From positions 372,001 through 436,000 of the forward strand of contig NZ_JAAVTX010000001.1 in the NCBI RefSeq assembly GCF_012163145.1: a stretch of DNA of 64,000 nucleotides, in the 5' to 3' direction. The DNA comes from Falsiroseomonas frigidaquae. Lineage in GTDB: Bacteria > Pseudomonadota > Alphaproteobacteria > Acetobacterales > Acetobacteraceae. The stretch's first letter is position 1. Each line of letters opens with the position of its first letter. Below are positions 44,779 through 54,970 of the stretch, piece after piece. The translations under genes were made by a program, and so were the position numbers. A model generated the notes under the pieces. It was given only the letters and a program-made list of their open reading frames with translations, did not search any database and was not told the origin of the DNA.

Positions 44779-46308
44779 ATGAGCCTCGACCTCGCGCTTT
44801 CGGTCGCCACCAGCGGGCTGCGCCTGCTGGACCGCCAGATGGCGCGGGCGGCGGATGACATCGCCAATGCCGGCACGCTGGGCCACACCCGCAAGGCGCT
44901 GGAGGGCAACGCCCTCACCGTCGCCGGTGACGGCCAGGGCGTGCGGGCGCGGGTCATCACGCGCGACGTGGATTTCGCGGTGCAGGCGGCGCAGCAGCGT
45001 GCCGGCGGCGATGCGGCGGCGGCCGGGCTGCGCGAACGCCTGCTTGGCGGCGTGGAGGCAGCGCACGGCACGCCGGAACTCGGCGACAGCCTGGGCGGGC
45101 TGGTCACCAGCCTGCAATCCGCCTTCATCGAGCTGCGCGAGGCCCCCGCCGACCCGGTGCGCCGCAATGCGGTGGTGACGCAGGCCAATACGCTGGCCGG
45201 CCGGCTGAACCAGGTCTCCGATGCGCTCGGCGCCGCGCGGCAGGGCGCGCATGACGCGCTGCGGACGGAGGTGGCGGCGGTGAATGCCGGACTGTCCGAC
45301 GTGGCGCGGCTGAACACCGCGATCAAGCGCGAGATCGCCGCCGGCCGCAGCTCCGCCTCGCTGGAGGATGAACGGGATCTCGCGATCGGCCAGCTCGCCG
45401 GCGCGCTGGACCTGTCGGTGATCCGCGGCAATGCGGGCGATGTCACGCTGGTGGCGCGCGGCGGCATCGTGCTGCCGCTGGTGGAAGGCAGCACGCCCTT
45501 CTCGCTGGAGGATGCGACCGTCGGCACCGGCGCCTTCCATGGCGGCGCCGGCACCCTGCCCGGCGTCATGCTGAATGGTCGCGACGTGACGCGGCAGCTT
45601 GCCGGTGGGCGCATGGGCGCGGCGGCGGAGCTGCGCGACGCGACGCTGCCGCGGATGCAGGCGGAGCTGGATGTGGCCGCGTCCCAGCTGGCCTACCGGC
45701 TGGAATCGCAGGGCTTGCGGCTGTTCACGGATGCCGCCGGCACGGTGCCCGATCCCACCCTGCCCTATGCCGGCAGCGCCATGATCGGCTTCGCCGGCGC
45801 CATCCGCGTGAACACCGCGGTGGCCGATGACCCGACGCTGCTGCGCGACGGCACGCATGACGTGGCGGGCGACCCGGCTGGCCCCACCGCCTTCACCACC
45901 AACCCGGAGACCGGCCCCGCGGGCTTCGAGACGCTGCTGAACCGGGTGCTGGATTTCAGCTTCGGCGCGGAACAGGCCACCGGCGTGGCGCAGCCGGCTT
46001 TCGCCACCGGCGGGCTGGGACCGGATGGCACGCTGTCCTCGCCGCTGTCGGGGCTGCGGACGCTGGCTGACTACGGCGCCGCGCTGGTCGCCGAGCAGAC
46101 CGGCGCGCGCGCCGCCGCGACGGAAGCCGCCGGGCGCGCCACCAGCCTGCAGGACCTGCTGGCCAGCCGGATGAGCGAACGCTCCGGCGTCGATGTCGAT
46201 GCGGAGGTCGCGGCCATGGTGCAGTTGCAGACCACCTACGGCGTCAATGCGCGCGTCATCTCCACCATCCAGGCGATGTGGGACGCGCTGTTCAGCGCGG
46301 TCCGCTGA
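44779..46308 (+). CDS. flgK: hook-filament junction protein FlgK (HAP1)
   Basis: 509 aa. N-terminal SLDLALSVATSGLRLLDRQM and DDIANAGTLGHTRKALE resemble the FlgK D0 segment; the middle has ALGAARQGAHDALRTEVAAV and NAGLSDVARLNTAIKREIAA; the C-terminus RSGVDVDAEVAAMVQLQTTY, NARVISTIQAMWDAL is the matching D0 helix. Usual FlgK is about this length or slightly longer. It starts 6 bp after flgE and ends 14 bp before flgL, so the three are one operon. Confidence 0.9.
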   Translation: MSLDLALSVATSGLRLLDRQMARAADDIANAGTLGHTRKALEGNALTVAGDGQGVRARVITRDVDFAVQAAQQRAGGDAAAAGLRERLLGGVEAAHGTPELGDSLGGLVTSLQSAFIELREAPADPVRRNAVVTQANTLAGRLNQVSDALGAARQGAHDALRTEVAAVNAGLSDVARLNTAIKREIAAGRSSASLEDERDLAIGQLAGALDLSVIRGNAGDVTLVARGGIVLPLVEGSTPFSLEDATVGTGAFHGGAGTLPGVMLNGRDVTRQLAGGRMGAAAELRDATLPRMQAELDVAASQLAYRLESQGLRLFTDAAGTVPDPTLPYAGSAMIGFAGAIRVNTAVADDPTLLRDGTHDVAGDPAGPTAFTTNPETGPAGFETLLNRVLDFSFGAEQATGVAQPAFATGGLGPDGTLSSPLSGLRTLADYGAALVAEQTGARAAATEAAGRATSLQDLLASRMSERSGVDVDAEVAAMVQLQTTYGVNARVISTIQAMWDALFSAVR

Positions 46309-46322
46309 GCGGAGGCCAGCCA

Positions 46323-47363
46323 TTGTCCATCATCGGCAGCATCGGCAATCTCGCGGTGGACCAGGCGGCGCTGCGGCTGCGCCTGGACAATGCCTCCCGC
46401 CAGGTCTCCACCGGACAGAAGGCGGAGGTGTTCGGCGACCTGCGGCCGGAGGCACGGCGCGCCATCGACCTGCGCGGCGAGGTGGCGCGGCGGGAGGCCT
46501 ATTCCAACGCCGCCGACCGCGCGCTGGCGCGGGCAGATGCGGCGCAGACCGTGCTGACACGGCTGCAGGATATCGCGGCGACGGTGGGGGCGGAGGCGCT
46601 GCGCGCCAAGACCATGTCCTCCACCGGCGCCGAGGCCCTGGCCCGCACCGCCTTCGCGGCGCTGGAGGAAGTGGCCGCGCTGCTGAACACGCGGCATGGC
46701 GGCGAATACCTGTTCGGCGGATCGGACGTGACCTCGCCACCTGTGCCGGATGCCGAGAATGTCGCCAGCGGGCCGATGGCCACCGCCATCGCCGATGCCG
46801 TCGCCACGTTGGATGCGACCAACGCCGCGACCGTACTGGCGGATACGGTGACGGCGGCAACCGCTGCCGCGACCACGCCCTTCTCCGCCTTCCTGGAAGG
46901 CCCCGGGACCACGGAGGCGACCCGCGCGGTGCAGGTGGCGGATGGCGAGCGGGTGCAGATCGGCGTCTTCGCCAATCGCGACCAGGAGGGCGAGGTGGTG
47001 GCGAGCTGGGGCCGCGAATTGCTGCGGAACCTGGCGGTGATGGCCTCGGTGACTCCGGCCCTGGCGGTGGAAGGCGGCGGCTGGTCCGGGCTGATGGATG
47101 GCGTCGCCGATGCGATGGGACAGGCGGCGACCAGCCTGGCCAATGAACAGGCGATGCTGGGTTCCGCGGAACAGCGGATCGGCGCGGTGCGCGACCGGCA
47201 CCAGGACACGCTGGTGGCGCTGCGGACCCAGCTTGGATCCGTGGAGGAGGTGGACCTGGCGCAGGCCGCGGCCGATCTCAGCCAGCTCAAGTCGCGGCTG
47301 GAGGCGTCCTATGAGGCGACCGGCCTGCTGTCCCGGCTTTCGCTCGCGGCGCTGCTCGGCTGA
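46323..47363 (+). CDS. flgL: hook-filament junction protein FlgL (HAP3), flagellin-like
   Basis: 346 aa starting at TTG 46323: GGAGG at 46311-46315 lies 7 nt upstream, and the resulting MSIIGSIGNLAVDQAALRLR fits the flagellin-type N-terminus, whereas no ATG does. Features: LDNASRQVSTGQKAEVFGDL, LLNTRHGGEYLFGGSDVTSP (the FlgL hallmark GGxYLFGG) and C-terminal DLAQAAADLSQLKSRLEASY. It follows flgK by 14 bp. The TTG start may keep this low-copy junction protein scarce. Confidence 0.9.
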   Translation: MSIIGSIGNLAVDQAALRLRLDNASRQVSTGQKAEVFGDLRPEARRAIDLRGEVARREAYSNAADRALARADAAQTVLTRLQDIAATVGAEALRAKTMSSTGAEALARTAFAALEEVAALLNTRHGGEYLFGGSDVTSPPVPDAENVASGPMATAIADAVATLDATNAATVLADTVTAATAAATTPFSAFLEGPGTTEATRAVQVADGERVQIGVFANRDQEGEVVASWGRELLRNLAVMASVTPALAVEGGGWSGLMDGVADAMGQAATSLANEQAMLGSAEQRIGAVRDRHQDTLVALRTQLGSVEEVDLAQAAADLSQLKSRLEASYEATGLLSRLSLAALLG

Positions 47364-47611: not shown

Positions 47612-48088
47612 ATGTCCACGTTGGTGCTCGAGATGCGGGCCGGCGAGTTGATGGTGGTAAACGGCGCCTCGCTGCGCTTTCGCAGCCGGACCCGGGTCGA
47701 GCTGGTGGCGAAGGCGCGGTTCCTGTTCGGCAAGCAGGTGATGTCGCCCGAAGGGGCGAACACACCCTCGCGCCGGATCTACTTCGCGCTGCAATGCGCC
47801 TATGTCGGGCCGGAGGAGGAGCGCGAGACGGCGATGGCCGACGCGCACCGCCTGGTGGCCGAGTTCCAGGAGGCGACGACGTCCGACATGGCGCGGCAGT
47901 TGCTGGAGCGTTCGCTGGCGCTGGCCGAGCAGGATGAATGGTACCAGGCGCTGCGCCTGGTGCGGCATGTGATGCGGCACGAGGCAACGGTGCTGGGGCT
48001 GGATGTGCTGACCGGCCTGCCCGTGCCGGTGGCCGGGCTGGCCGCGGCGGCCGCCGCGCAGGCAGCATTGCGGCCGCATCTGGACTGA
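47612..48088 (+). CDS. flbT: flagellin mRNA regulator FlbT
   Basis: 158 aa from ATG 47612, GGGAGAG upstream. FlbT post-transcriptionally represses flagellin by acting on the 5' leader of its mRNA in Caulobacter. Features: STLVLEMRAGELMVVNGASL, RVELVAKARFLFGKQVMSPE, SRRIYFALQCAYVGPEEERE and YQALRLVRHVMRHEATVLGL. It lies directly upstream of flagellin, with a structured 204-bp gap. The 249-bp stretch before it (47364-47611) has no sigma-54 match that I can defend. Confidence 0.93.
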   Translation: MSTLVLEMRAGELMVVNGASLRFRSRTRVELVAKARFLFGKQVMSPEGANTPSRRIYFALQCAYVGPEEERETAMADAHRLVAEFQEATTSDMARQLLERSLALAEQDEWYQALRLVRHVMRHEATVLGLDVLTGLPVPVAGLAAAAAAQAALRPHLD

Positions 48089-48292
48089 GGTTTCACGAAT
48101 TTCCTGCCCCGGCGGCGCCGGGCTTTACCGCCCGTTCATGCAGGCGGGGCAGGATGCCAGGGAAAGGTCCACAAGCTTCGGACCTCTGGCCGACGGGAAC
48201 GGCGCCGCAGGCGGCGCCACCCCACCGGCCCCGCGAACGGGAGGCAAAATGCCGCCCCGGGCGCGGAACGCCTTTCGAAGGAGATGGGGACA
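48089..48292 (+). promoter_or_regulatory. structured leader region upstream of flagellin, candidate FlbT target
   Basis: 204 bp with three dyads: CCTGCCCC/GGGGCAGG (48103-48153), AGGTCC/GGACCT (48165-48185) and GGCGCC/GGCGCC (48201-48218). The ribosome site AAGGAG is at 48278-48283. FlbT is encoded directly upstream and is known to act on flagellin leaders, so this is the natural place to look; binding here is inference. Confidence 0.45.
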
Positions 48293-49483
48293 ATGTCCTC
48301 CGTCAACACCAATGCCGCCGCCATGGCGGCCATTCGCTCGCTGAACATGATCGGCAAGGACCTGGGCAAGACCCAGCAGCGGATCGAGACCAACCTGCGC
48401 ATCAGCAAGGCCGATGACGACCCCGCCGTGTTCGCCATCGCGCAGAACATGCGTGCCGACCTCAACGGCATGACCGCGGTCAAGGACAGCCTGAAGTTCG
48501 GCAAATCCGCGCTGACCGTGGCGCGCGACGCGGCGACGCAGATCTCGGATGAGCTGGGCCGGCTGAAGCAGACCATGACGCAGGGCCAGCAGCAGGGCCT
48601 GGATGCGGAGCAGATCAACAACCAGATCACCAACGCGCTGCAGAACATCGACGCCTTCGCCAATTCCGCCACCTTCAACGGCGTGAACCTGCTGGTCTCC
48701 GGCCGCACGGTGGACGGCGTCACCAACACCACCGTGGACATCGTGCGTGACATCCAGGGCGCGGTCACCACGGTGGAGGGCACCGACAGCACCTCCGACG
48801 GCCTCGACCTCACCGGCCTGTCCGTCACCTCCGCCGCGCGCACCGTCACCTTCGACGATACGCTGGCGCCGGCGAATGGCGAGATCCTGACCGTGACCGT
48901 GCAGCGCGACGTCGATGGCGACCCGGACACCGATCTCGAGGATGTCGAGATGGTGTTCGAGTTCAGCGACGGCACCGCGGCGCTGGGCACCACGCCGTCC
49001 GAGACCAGCCGTGTCTATGACGTGCAGTTCGTGGACGACGACAGCCCGCTGACCCGCATCACCACCCTGGTCACCCGCATGAAGGAAGCCGGGATCGATG
49101 CCGGCCTGAATGCGGAGGGTGAGCTGTACATCCGCGGCAACTCGCAGGACGTGACCACCGACATCACCGGCGCGACGGTGGAGGATGCGCCGGCGGACGG
49201 CACCGGCCAGGACGAGGCGATCGCGCTGGTGGAAGGCGCCATCGACCTGATGGGCACGCGGCTGGCCAATCTCGGCGCCAATATCCGCCAGGTCGATGGC
49301 CTGACGACCTTCACCACGCAGCTCAGCGACTCGATCAAGGAAGGCCTCGGCGCGCTGGTCGATGCGGACCTGGCGGAGGAAAGCGCACGGCTGACCAGCC
49401 TGCAGACCAAGCAGCAGCTGGCGACGCAGTCGCTGTCCATCGCCAATGAACAGAGCCAGTCGCTGCTCAGCCTGTTCCGGTAA
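48293..49483 (+). CDS. fliC: flagellin
   Basis: 396 aa, the filament subunit. ATG 48293 is preferred over ATG 48284 because AAGGAG (48278-48283) abuts the earlier ATG with no spacer but gives 9 nt to this one. Conserved N-terminal D0/D1 (SSVNTNAAAMAAIRSLNMIG, KTQQRIETNLRISKADDDPA, DELGRLKQTMTQGQQQGLDA) and C-terminal D1/D0 (TFTTQLSDSIKEGLGALVDA, DLAEESARLTSLQTKQQLAT, SLSIANEQSQSLLSLFR). The central D2-like region (residues about 140-290) is acidic and specific to this lineage. A strong hairpin follows the stop. Confidence 0.96.
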   Translation: MSSVNTNAAAMAAIRSLNMIGKDLGKTQQRIETNLRISKADDDPAVFAIAQNMRADLNGMTAVKDSLKFGKSALTVARDAATQISDELGRLKQTMTQGQQQGLDAEQINNQITNALQNIDAFANSATFNGVNLLVSGRTVDGVTNTTVDIVRDIQGAVTTVEGTDSTSDGLDLTGLSVTSAARTVTFDDTLAPANGEILTVTVQRDVDGDPDTDLEDVEMVFEFSDGTAALGTTPSETSRVYDVQFVDDDSPLTRITTLVTRMKEAGIDAGLNAEGELYIRGNSQDVTTDITGATVEDAPADGTGQDEAIALVEGAIDLMGTRLANLGANIRQVDGLTTFTTQLSDSIKEGLGALVDADLAEESARLTSLQTKQQLATQSLSIANEQSQSLLSLFR

Positions 49484-49652: not shown

Positions 49653-50045
49653 ATGAGCGCTTCGCGCTACGCCGCCACCCAGAATGCCGTCGCCTCCCCT
49701 CGCGAGATCGAGCTGCGCGCCTTCCGCTACGTCAACGGGCTGATGGCCGCGGCGCGCGATACGCGGTCCCGTGCCGTGGCGCTGGAGAAGGTGCACCGGA
49801 TGTGGTCGATCCTGATCAACGACCTTGGCTCGCCCGGCAACAAGCTGCCGGCGGAGCTGCGCGGCCGGCTGATCTCGCTCGGTCTCTGGGCGCAGAAGCA
49901 GACCGACCTGCGGCTCGATGATGGCGGCAGCCTGGAGCCGCTGATGGCGCTGCATCGCGACATGATCGAGGCGCTGGAAAGCCAGCGCGGCGTCGCCGCA
50001 CCCATGCCATCCACCGTCCAGGCCTTCATCGCCCGGGTCGCCTGA
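49653..50045 (+). CDS. flaF: flagellin synthesis/secretion regulator FlaF
   Basis: 130 aa. FlaF works opposite FlbT: it is needed for flagellin synthesis or secretion in Caulobacter and Brucella. ATG 49653 with GGAGG 6 nt upstream; an earlier in-frame ATG lacks a site. Seen: NAVASPREIELRAFRYVNGL, KVHRMWSILINDLGSPGNKL, PAELRGRLISLGLWAQKQTD. It is 2 bp from the downstream DUF1217 gene, so they are coexpressed. Confidence 0.92.
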   Translation: MSASRYAATQNAVASPREIELRAFRYVNGLMAAARDTRSRAVALEKVHRMWSILINDLGSPGNKLPAELRGRLISLGLWAQKQTDLRLDDGGSLEPLMALHRDMIEALESQRGVAAPMPSTVQAFIARVA

Positions 50046-50046
50046 G

Positions 50047-51336
50047 ATGCTGCCGGGCCTCGGCGCGCTGACCGCATTGGCCGTTGCCCAGCGAGAGGGG
50101 GCCAATCTGCAGGCACGCTTCGGCGCCCGGACCGACAATGCGGCGGCAATGGAGCGCTTCCGTGGGGCCGCGACGCAGCATGAGGATGTGGAATCGCTGC
50201 TGAAGGACCGCCGCACCCTGCAGGTGGTGCTGGAGGCCTTTCAGCTCGAGGGTGAGATCGACAAGCGCGGCATCCTGCGCAAGATCCTGACGGAGGACCC
50301 CGCCGCCGAGGGCAGCCTGGCCAACAGGCTGACCGACCGTCGCTGGCGCGAGCTGGCCAAGGCCTTCGCAGCGCGCGAGGCCTCGACCCAGACGGCGACC
50401 GAGATCGCGGCGCTGTCCACCACCGCGATCGGCGAGGTCTCGCTCGCCCGCATGGCGGGGCTGACCACGGAGCAGGTCAAGGCCCTGACCGCCGCGCAGG
50501 TGCAGGTGCTGGACACCGCGCAGATCCGCGCCATCGGCAGCAGCGAGATCGCCGCGCTGGATGTGGGCGATGTGCGGGCGCTGGATTCGGCGCAGGTCGC
50601 GGCGCTGCGGCCTTCCCAGCTTGCGGCGCTCGGCACCGCGCAGCTTGCCGCGATCGAGGCTTCGGAATTCGCCGGGCTCGGCGTGGCGCAGCTGCGCGCG
50701 CTGGCGACGAGCCAGATCGCGGCGCTCGGCACCAGCCAGCTCGCGGCGCTCGGCACCGAACAGCTTGCCGCCTTCTCGGGCAGCCAGGCGCGCGCGCTGG
50801 ATACGGCGCAGCGCGCGGCGCTCGGAACGGCGCAGCTGCGCGCGCTCGGCACATCGGGCCCGCCCACGGCGGCGGAGGAAGCGGCGGCGGCGGCGCTGGA
50901 GGTGCGGAGCCCCTTCACCGATGCGGCGCTGCTCGATCGCGTGGTCGCCGATGCGATGACCAACCGCTACGAAAAATCCATGGGCGATGCCAATGCGGGG
51001 CTGCGGGAAGCGCTGTACTTCATGCGCAACGCGGACAAGATCACCTCCATCGCGGAGCTGATGACCGACAAGGCCATGACCGCGGTGCTGCGCGGCGCGC
51101 TCGGCCTGCCGGAGAGTTTCGGCGTGCTGGAATTCGACCAGCAGAAGGCGATCCTGACGGAACGGGTGGATCTGGAATCGCTGAAGGATCCGAAGGAGGT
51201 GGCAAAGCTGGCGCAGCGCTACCTGGCGCTGGCGGCGCCCTCGCAATCGGTGAGCAATCCGGTCCTGGCGCTGTTCGGCGGCAGCGGTACGTCGCTCAAC
51301 AGCCTGATCGGCAGCGGCATTTCGCTCAGCGCCTGA
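50047..51336 (+). CDS. DUF1217 flagellar-cluster protein interrupted by an octapeptide-repeat insert
   Basis: 429 aa, no signal peptide. N-terminal (residues 1-120; TQHEDVESLLKDRRTLQVVL, GEIDKRGILRKILTEDPAAE, DRRWRELAKAFAA) and C-terminal (285-429; VADAMTNRYEKSMGDANAGL, REALYFMRNADKITSIAELM) parts match DUF1217, a family found in alphaproteobacterial flagellar clusters and probably exported with the flagellum. Between them, residues 123-270 are about 18 octads of pattern LxTxQLAA. Most DUF1217 proteins lack such an insert. It starts 2 bp after flaF. Function unknown; a surface or hook-associated role is inferred from position. Confidence 0.8.
   Translation: MLPGLGALTALAVAQREGANLQARFGARTDNAAAMERFRGAATQHEDVESLLKDRRTLQVVLEAFQLEGEIDKRGILRKILTEDPAAEGSLANRLTDRRWRELAKAFAAREASTQTATEIAALSTTAIGEVSLARMAGLTTEQVKALTAAQVQVLDTAQIRAIGSSEIAALDVGDVRALDSAQVAALRPSQLAALGTAQLAAIEASEFAGLGVAQLRALATSQIAALGTSQLAALGTEQLAAFSGSQARALDTAQRAALGTAQLRALGTSGPPTAAEEAAAAALEVRSPFTDAALLDRVVADAMTNRYEKSMGDANAGLREALYFMRNADKITSIAELMTDKAMTAVLRGALGLPESFGVLEFDQQKAILTERVDLESLKDPKEVAKLAQRYLALAAPSQSVSNPVLALFGGSGTSLNSLIGSGISLSA
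50413..50856 (+). repeat. 24-bp coding repeat array (octapeptide LxTxQLAA)
   Basis: About 18 successive 8-residue units within the DUF1217 gene, for example LDTAQIRA, LDSAQVAA, LGTAQLAA, LATSQIAA, LGTSQLAA, LGTEQLAA; positions 1 (Leu/Ile), 5 (Gln) and 8 (Ala) are most constant. The units are degenerate at DNA level, so the array is old and kept by selection rather than fresh slippage. Confidence 0.85.
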
Positions 51337-54825: not shown

Positions 54826-54970
54826 TGGCGGGTGCCGCACCGCGGGTGCGGCTGGGCTTGGCGAGTGCCGCACCGCGGGTGCGGCGGGGCTTGGCGGGTG
54901 CCGCACCCCGGGTGCGGCGGGGCTTGGCGGGTGCTTCACCCCGGGTGCGGCGGGGCTTGGCGGATGCCGC
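54826..54970. repeat. 33-bp tandem repeat array with a hairpin in each unit
   Basis: Four full units starting at 54826, 54859, 54892 and 54925, and a partial one at 54958. Units begin TGGCGGGTGCCGCACC and carry the dyad CCGCACC-N3-GGTGCGG (7-bp stem, 3-nt loop); the fourth has a two-base change that breaks it (CTTCACC). The array lies between the divergent apt and DUF2842 starts and ends 21 bp before the latter. There are no spacers, so it is not CRISPR. Confidence 0.85.

Follow-up and report, generated by a model that had tools for sequence, protein, structure and literature searches.

An octapeptide array of constant length at the hinge of a flagellar-cluster DUF1217 protein in Falsiroseomonas, and a tentative late role for DUF1217 in FlaF-type flagella

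In the 64,000-nucleotide stretch of Falsiroseomonas frigidaquae DNA analysed here (the window), a gene of the flagellar cluster encodes a DUF1217 protein whose two conserved halves are separated by 18 octapeptide units. The octads are real and constrained but dispensable, and what is new is their combination with DUF1217, in a slot that hook D2 domains fill in some relatives. Both DUF1217 (PF06748) and the octad family ALTTAQ_rpt (PF20080) are known families for which no function was found in the literature. We propose, with confidence just short of even, that DUF1217 is an exported, FliD-like protein acting late in the assembly of FlaF-type flagella, with its two halves as the core and its hinge as a slot that in Falsiroseomonas would hold a rigid, outward-pointing octad screw. 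A domain without function would thus gain a testable role as a late exported part of FliD-less flagella, and synteny connects it with a gene already reported as essential, the product of which had been described as specific to one order. DUF1217 is moreover a flagellar protein whose slot accepts interchangeable inserts of at least five unrelated kinds, among them an octad array of fixed length.

Table 1. Features of the flagellar cluster in the window (positions of the 64,000-nucleotide stretch).
Feature	Position	Strand	Basis
flgK	44779..46308	+	FlgK_D1 9.4e-32
flgL-like gene	46326..47363	+	Flagellin_N + Flagellin_C
flbT	47612..48088	+	PF07378 4.4e-28; start codon inferred
Flagellin gene fliC	48284..49483	+	
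flaF	49653..50045	+	PF07309 4.7e-21; start codon inferred
DUF1217 protein gene with octad insert, 429 aa	50047..51336	+	ORF translation, Pfam
N-terminal half of DUF1217, about residues 1-112	50047..50382	+	Pfam profile 1-62 match = 50236-50421, slightly inside first octad
18 octads L-x-T-x-Q-(L/I/V)-x-A, residues 123-266, ALTTAQ repeat	50413..50844	+	Pfam, register
Linker 3' of array, about residues 267-288	50845..50910	+	Orthologue alignment
C-terminal half of DUF1217, about residues 289-429	50911..51333	+	Pfam profile 58-149

The genes of the window run in the order flgK-flgL-flbT-fliC-flaF-DUF1217 (Table 1), and the stop codon of flaF and the start codon of the DUF1217 gene are separated by one base rather than by the 2 bp given in the preliminary description. 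The 429-aa protein matched DUF1217 in two stretches (E 2.8e-37, 128.6 bits vs a gathering score of 22.9) and ALTTAQ_rpt in six (E 9.3e-32, 108.9 bits vs a gathering score of 26.4). Both flanks of the array matched the Agrobacterium DUF1217 protein AGR_C_984p (PDB 2o8s), on whose chain one match stops at residue 173 and the other starts at residue 182, and hence 2o8s has no comparable insert. Neither FliD_N nor FliD_C was among the three Pfam families matched by the window protein at E up to 1, and a profile search of the source genome gave no FliD_N match. In PHROGs, weak matches fell in the repeat part and one in the C-terminal half, the best at 1.2e-6.

The octads had been placed between two DUF1217 halves from the outset, and Pfam and the register of 18 units agree with this, but the array ends at residue 266 (nucleotide 50844) and not at residue 270. 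Across residues 123-266, identity at lags of 8, 16, 24 and 32 lies 9-11 s.d. above that of shuffled sequences; this periodicity, the Pfam match and the conservation among orthologues rule out chance or a compositional artefact as the source of the octads. Glutamine, previously assigned to position 5 of the unit in general, occupies it in 13 of the 18 window units and is missing there from units 1, 2, 6, 7 and 11. Over the 216 units of 12 orthologues it is found in 163, and at 11 of the 18 units it is invariant. In the same 216 units, a hydrophobic residue fills position 1 in 212, position 6 carries a hydrophobic residue or alanine in 201 and position 8 a small residue in 187; position 3 holds 38 of the 44 prolines, and S, T, D, G or N occupies position 2 in 183. 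The bias at positions 2 and 3 amounts to a helix-start pattern every eight residues and favours a helix over a strand ladder, so that a screw of short helices is the better-fitting prediction for the array. The earlier proposal that a regular array is kept by selection thus stands, with a helical form favoured by inference from sequence. Also borne out was the statement that the units differ at the DNA level while selection keeps the pattern, as unit-to-unit DNA identity in the window averages 54% (maximum 88%) and dN/dS among orthologues is low (see below).

The repeat is not undescribed, since the Pfam family PF20080 exists and the array matches HeliScrew4 (PDB 9zem), which, judging from its name, is probably a designed protein. 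The match is gapless over 110 residues (E 1.3e-13, or 3.8e-26 with a profile, scores that are inflated by the repeats). Compared by sequence, HeliScrew4 is, like the array, a chain of octads (120 residues), but it stands alone, whereas the window array lies inside a flagellar protein. In the same way, the window array has the octad pattern in common with the ALTTAQ family, yet it is limited to 18 units within a flagellar protein, whereas the two other repeat proteins of the source genome are almost pure repeat. These two comprise 1,099 residues as scanned (L054:2500-6030 on G000:C13; PF20080 E 3.6e-223) and 1,239 residues (L055:2506-6264 on G000:C15; 5e-151). The former is much richer in threonine, with units such as LTTTQLAA, and is back to back with a gene on the minus strand for a TPR and glycosyltransferase family 41 protein (L054:648-2699). 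The names ALTTAQ and HeliScrew were not found in use in the literature, where octad and solenoid topics gave nothing relevant.

DUF1217 is present in all 16 genomes of the genus. The preliminary description had considered that the repeat might be missing from all close relatives, which did not occur: the orthologue carries the octad insert in 12 of the 16 genomes and lacks it in four. All 12 inserted orthologues have 18 units, with no indel in the units down to 50% whole-protein identity, and length variation within the insert is confined to the linker that follows the array. Over nine orthologue pairs, dN/dS was 0.25-0.57 for the array, 0.14-0.32 for the N-terminal half and 0.23-0.41 for the C-terminal half, and the array value exceeded that of the N-terminal half in eight of the nine; the octad pattern is therefore under purifying selection, though looser than that on the N-terminal half. 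For all 11 orthologues compared, the best alignment of the whole arrays involved no unit shift, which together with the constant unit number rules out a young tandem expansion. Taken singly, 10-15 of the 18 units found their own counterpart in the eight nearer orthologues and 5-9 of 18 in the three most distant. A tree of the flanks has two changes of insert state, with one inserted protein (G129) on a long branch, and a single clade of inserted proteins was not rejected (p-AU 0.285); since one such clade is compatible with the tree, multiple origins of the insert are unneeded. The constant length, the absence of unit shifts and the low dN/dS indicate an array that is old, fixed in length and selected, yet dispensable in some relatives.

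The hinge that holds the octads takes other inserts elsewhere. Among 299 Acetobacterales genomes, 223 of which have DUF1217, the halves are separated by at least 110 inserted residues in at least 42 of the 223, among the matches listed and with G220, G237 and G337 looked at in addition; five belong to Falsiroseomonas and 37 lie outside it (one of the 37, in G279, is a protein read in two frames). The survey covers inserts that split the Pfam DUF1217 domain. The split site is nearly constant, with the N-terminal half ending at HMM positions 106-133 and the C-terminal half starting at 102-121, and across it the alignments of the two halves overlap in the octad proteins. An all-against-all BLAST of 46 inserts (including two plasmid genes and seven of the 12 proteins from the genus, and excluding G279) returned five groups, of 12, 6, 14, 7 and 7 members, with no links between them at 1e-4. 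In the group of 12, FlgE_D2 (PF07559), a domain of the hook protein, scored above the Pfam cut-off in 11 members, and one DUF1217 protein of this group has five FlgE_D2 stretches. Thus, hook D2 occupies in these proteins the slot that the octads occupy in Falsiroseomonas, although the two inserts are unrelated by BLAST. PF20080 matched none of 25 scanned hinge-insert proteins from other genera (E up to 1, but up to 0.001 for seven of them; 6/7, 10/10, 7/10 and 2/5 of four scanned sets), which rules out the idea that octads are typical of DUF1217 proteins at large. Besides the hinge inserts, parts of DUF1217 are repeated, or present as two tandem copies, at L140:561-2708 (G171) and L049:1242-2906 (G061). 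Open frames of 834-981 residues in other families also contain DUF1217 (G366:C1:63644-67004 and G447:C23:153728-154156), nearly whole in one match, so that their additional length comes from outside the domain.

In this group of bacteria, DUF1217 is linked to the filament genes. FliC and FlaF lie upstream of it in 21 of 21 named loci, joined by FlgL and FlbT in 17. Across the 299 Acetobacterales genomes, which are related and whose counts are uncorrected for kinship, so that p-values computed from them are too strong, FlaF occurs in 223 and together with DUF1217 in 221 of the 225 that have either. FliD_N was found in 17 genomes (in one, G186, as a match below the cut-off that contains a stop), none of which has DUF1217 or FlaF; 57 genomes have none of the three. 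It may be that this exclusion simply marks two inherited types of flagellar system. Among 106 genomes sampled across the class, DUF1217 occurs in 11, FlaF in 36 and FliD in 23, with nine genomes having DUF1217 and FlaF and two having FlaF and FliD; none of the 11 DUF1217 genomes has FliD, an overlap of zero that is not significant (p 0.12). As 27 of the 36 FlaF genomes gave no DUF1217 match, DUF1217 is either no universal cap or too diverged there. The two genes lie within 1.5 kb of each other in five of the nine class-wide genomes having both, and in some Acetobacterales genomes, G262 and G180 for example, they sit on separate contigs; linkage to flaF is therefore not general.

The cysteine content of the family bears on its location. 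Among the DUF1217 proteins counted, a set leaving out those without the N-terminal half, 116 of 117 distinct proteins have no cysteine, and a single cysteine occurs in 44,524 residues. At the rate of the other flagellar proteins of Escherichia coli K-12, 171 would be expected, a figure uncorrected for kinship. In E. coli K-12, cysteine is absent from 14 of 14 flagellar export substrates (labels that we take from established knowledge) and from 10 of 20 other flagellar proteins. At the named loci it is lacking in FliC (21/21), FlgL (17/17), FlaF (18/21) and FlbT (1/17). FlaF is regarded as a cytoplasmic protein and, to our knowledge, not one that is exported. Given that FlaF is mostly cysteine-free, as are half of the E. 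coli non-substrates, the lack of cysteine is not specific and does not prove export; it is a strong sign for the DUF1217 family and a weak one for any single protein. We nevertheless consider export of DUF1217 likely. The literature gave nothing on cysteine in axial proteins. A relationship of DUF1217 to flagellin or FlgL was rejected, as there was no profile signal (hhalign probability 0.1 and 0.2). The earlier suggestion that the protein is a structural part exported through the flagellum is thus supported indirectly, by the cysteine-free family, by hook D2 in the slot of relatives and by the flgK-flgL-flbT-fliC-flaF neighbourhood.

A functional clue could come from Rhodobacterales, in which a study of Phaeobacter inhibens (PMC11974857, in print as PMC12363192) gives the name CP1 to the protein whose gene follows fliC-flaF-flbT. 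On the 124-kb plasmid pA of Cereibacter sphaeroides 2.4.1, the order is flagellin-flaF-flbT-DUF1217. We therefore identify CP1 with DUF1217 by synteny in C. sphaeroides rather than from the Phaeobacter inhibens gene itself; going by the available text of PMC12363192, the place after fliC-flaF-flbT is the same, and the C. sphaeroides gene encodes DUF1217, but as a protein of 262 aa without an insert. The available portions of PMC11974857 report that the P. inhibens CP1 mutant is immotile and shows no flagella by electron microscopy, some cells having an undefined polar structure, although only few wild-type cells were flagellated in the same images. They also report that most flagellar exoproteins, including the flagellin FliC, are still secreted by the mutant, and in their discussion the authors include rod, hook and filament proteins in the set that is kept (PMC11974857). 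According to the same portions, FliD is absent (PMC11974857; PMC12363192). CP1-4 are said, in the available text, to occur only in the fla1 system of Rhodobacterales (PMC12363192); if CP1 is DUF1217, the matches outside that order contradict this specificity at the family level. The string 'DUF' does not appear in the main text of either version of the study as available (PMC11974857; PMC12363192), and nothing was found in the literature that joins CP1 with DUF1217, on which the sources in their accessible parts offered single table rows only.

The reading that we prefer is a protein that would leave the cell, free of cysteine, by the secretion channel of FlaF-type alphaproteobacterial flagella and would act late, at filament assembly, as the FliD cap that is missing there does elsewhere. 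The two conserved halves would form the core and the hinge would be a slot for outer domains, as the central region is in flagellin and hook proteins. In Falsiroseomonas, the 18 fixed octads could fill this slot as a rigid helical screw with one short helix per octad, in which L1, Q5, V/I/L6 and A8 would face inside and the whole would point outward as a spacer or surface. The likeness to the FliD cap lies in a late step of assembly, by analogy, and in a presence mutually exclusive with that of DUF1217 in the 299 genomes; the difference, at the level of sequence, is that the DUF1217 protein has no FliD_N or FliD_C match. A cap-like role is plausible. Several facts count against this reading: CP1 was not detected in the P. 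inhibens exoproteome (PMC11974857), DUF1217 shows no profile similarity to flagellin or FlgL, most FlaF genomes of the class-wide sample gave no DUF1217 match, linkage to flaF is not general (a Brucella table puts the gene between motA and flgF), FlaF too is mostly cysteine-free, and four genus orthologues manage without the insert. We advance with more doubt than belief the specific version in which FlaF-type flagella without FliD have DUF1217 as their filament cap, or as a cap-like assembly factor, with its hinge as a modular slot for hook D2, beta and helical domains and for the 18-rung octad screw, which would decorate the tip or a junction.

The same evidence can be read in other ways. 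It is somewhat unlikely that DUF1217 is exported and axial without being a cap, as a junction subunit or a hook or rod accessory near FlgK, FlgL or FlgF whose outer domain would be the octads. Such a position would suit the hook D2 domains in some relatives, the cysteine-free family and the flgK and flgL genes upstream in the window, as well as the Marinovum DUF1217 copy annotated FlgF and the Brucella DUF1217 gene that the accessible part of a table places between motA and flgF; it agrees less well with the absence of a profile match between DUF1217 and FlgL, and the rod, hook and filament exoproteins kept in the CP1 mutant, as described in the available text, point to a step after the hook (PMC11974857). 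By the same account, flagellin is secreted without CP1 (PMC11974857), which also speaks against a cytoplasmic or periplasmic assembly factor for the filament, a chaperone or export regulator with the inserts as binding modules. We regard this second possibility as unlikely, considering also that 117 DUF1217 proteins are nearly devoid of cysteine, unlike FlbT, and that the slot holds hook D2 domains, which are otherwise external. It does draw on the linkage to flaF and flbT, on the scarcity of cysteine in FlaF itself and, from the accessible portions of the P. inhibens study, on the failure to find CP1 in the exoproteome and the chaperone-like roles that its authors considered (PMC11974857).

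Finally, the octads could be a neutral passenger, with only the DUF1217 core of importance. Their absence from four of 16 genus orthologues and from a paralogue, and the looser constraint on the array than on the N-terminal half in eight of nine pairs, would fit this. An array without a role would, we infer, be expected to change in length, whereas 18 units are kept without indel in 12 species down to 50% identity, with dN/dS of 0.25-0.57 and an unvarying Q5 at 11 of the 18 units, and a passenger is accordingly quite improbable.

The source genome also has a second flagellin-FlaF-FlbT set with its own DUF1217 paralogue, which is the one without an insert (L053:191-2837; G000:C9:183500-188500). 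This set adjoins ParA/MinD-type and SRP54-type GTPase genes, which are presumably FlhG- and FlhF-like. In the window itself, positions 54826-54970 hold a tandem repeat with a 33-base unit in 4.4 copies (91% matches).
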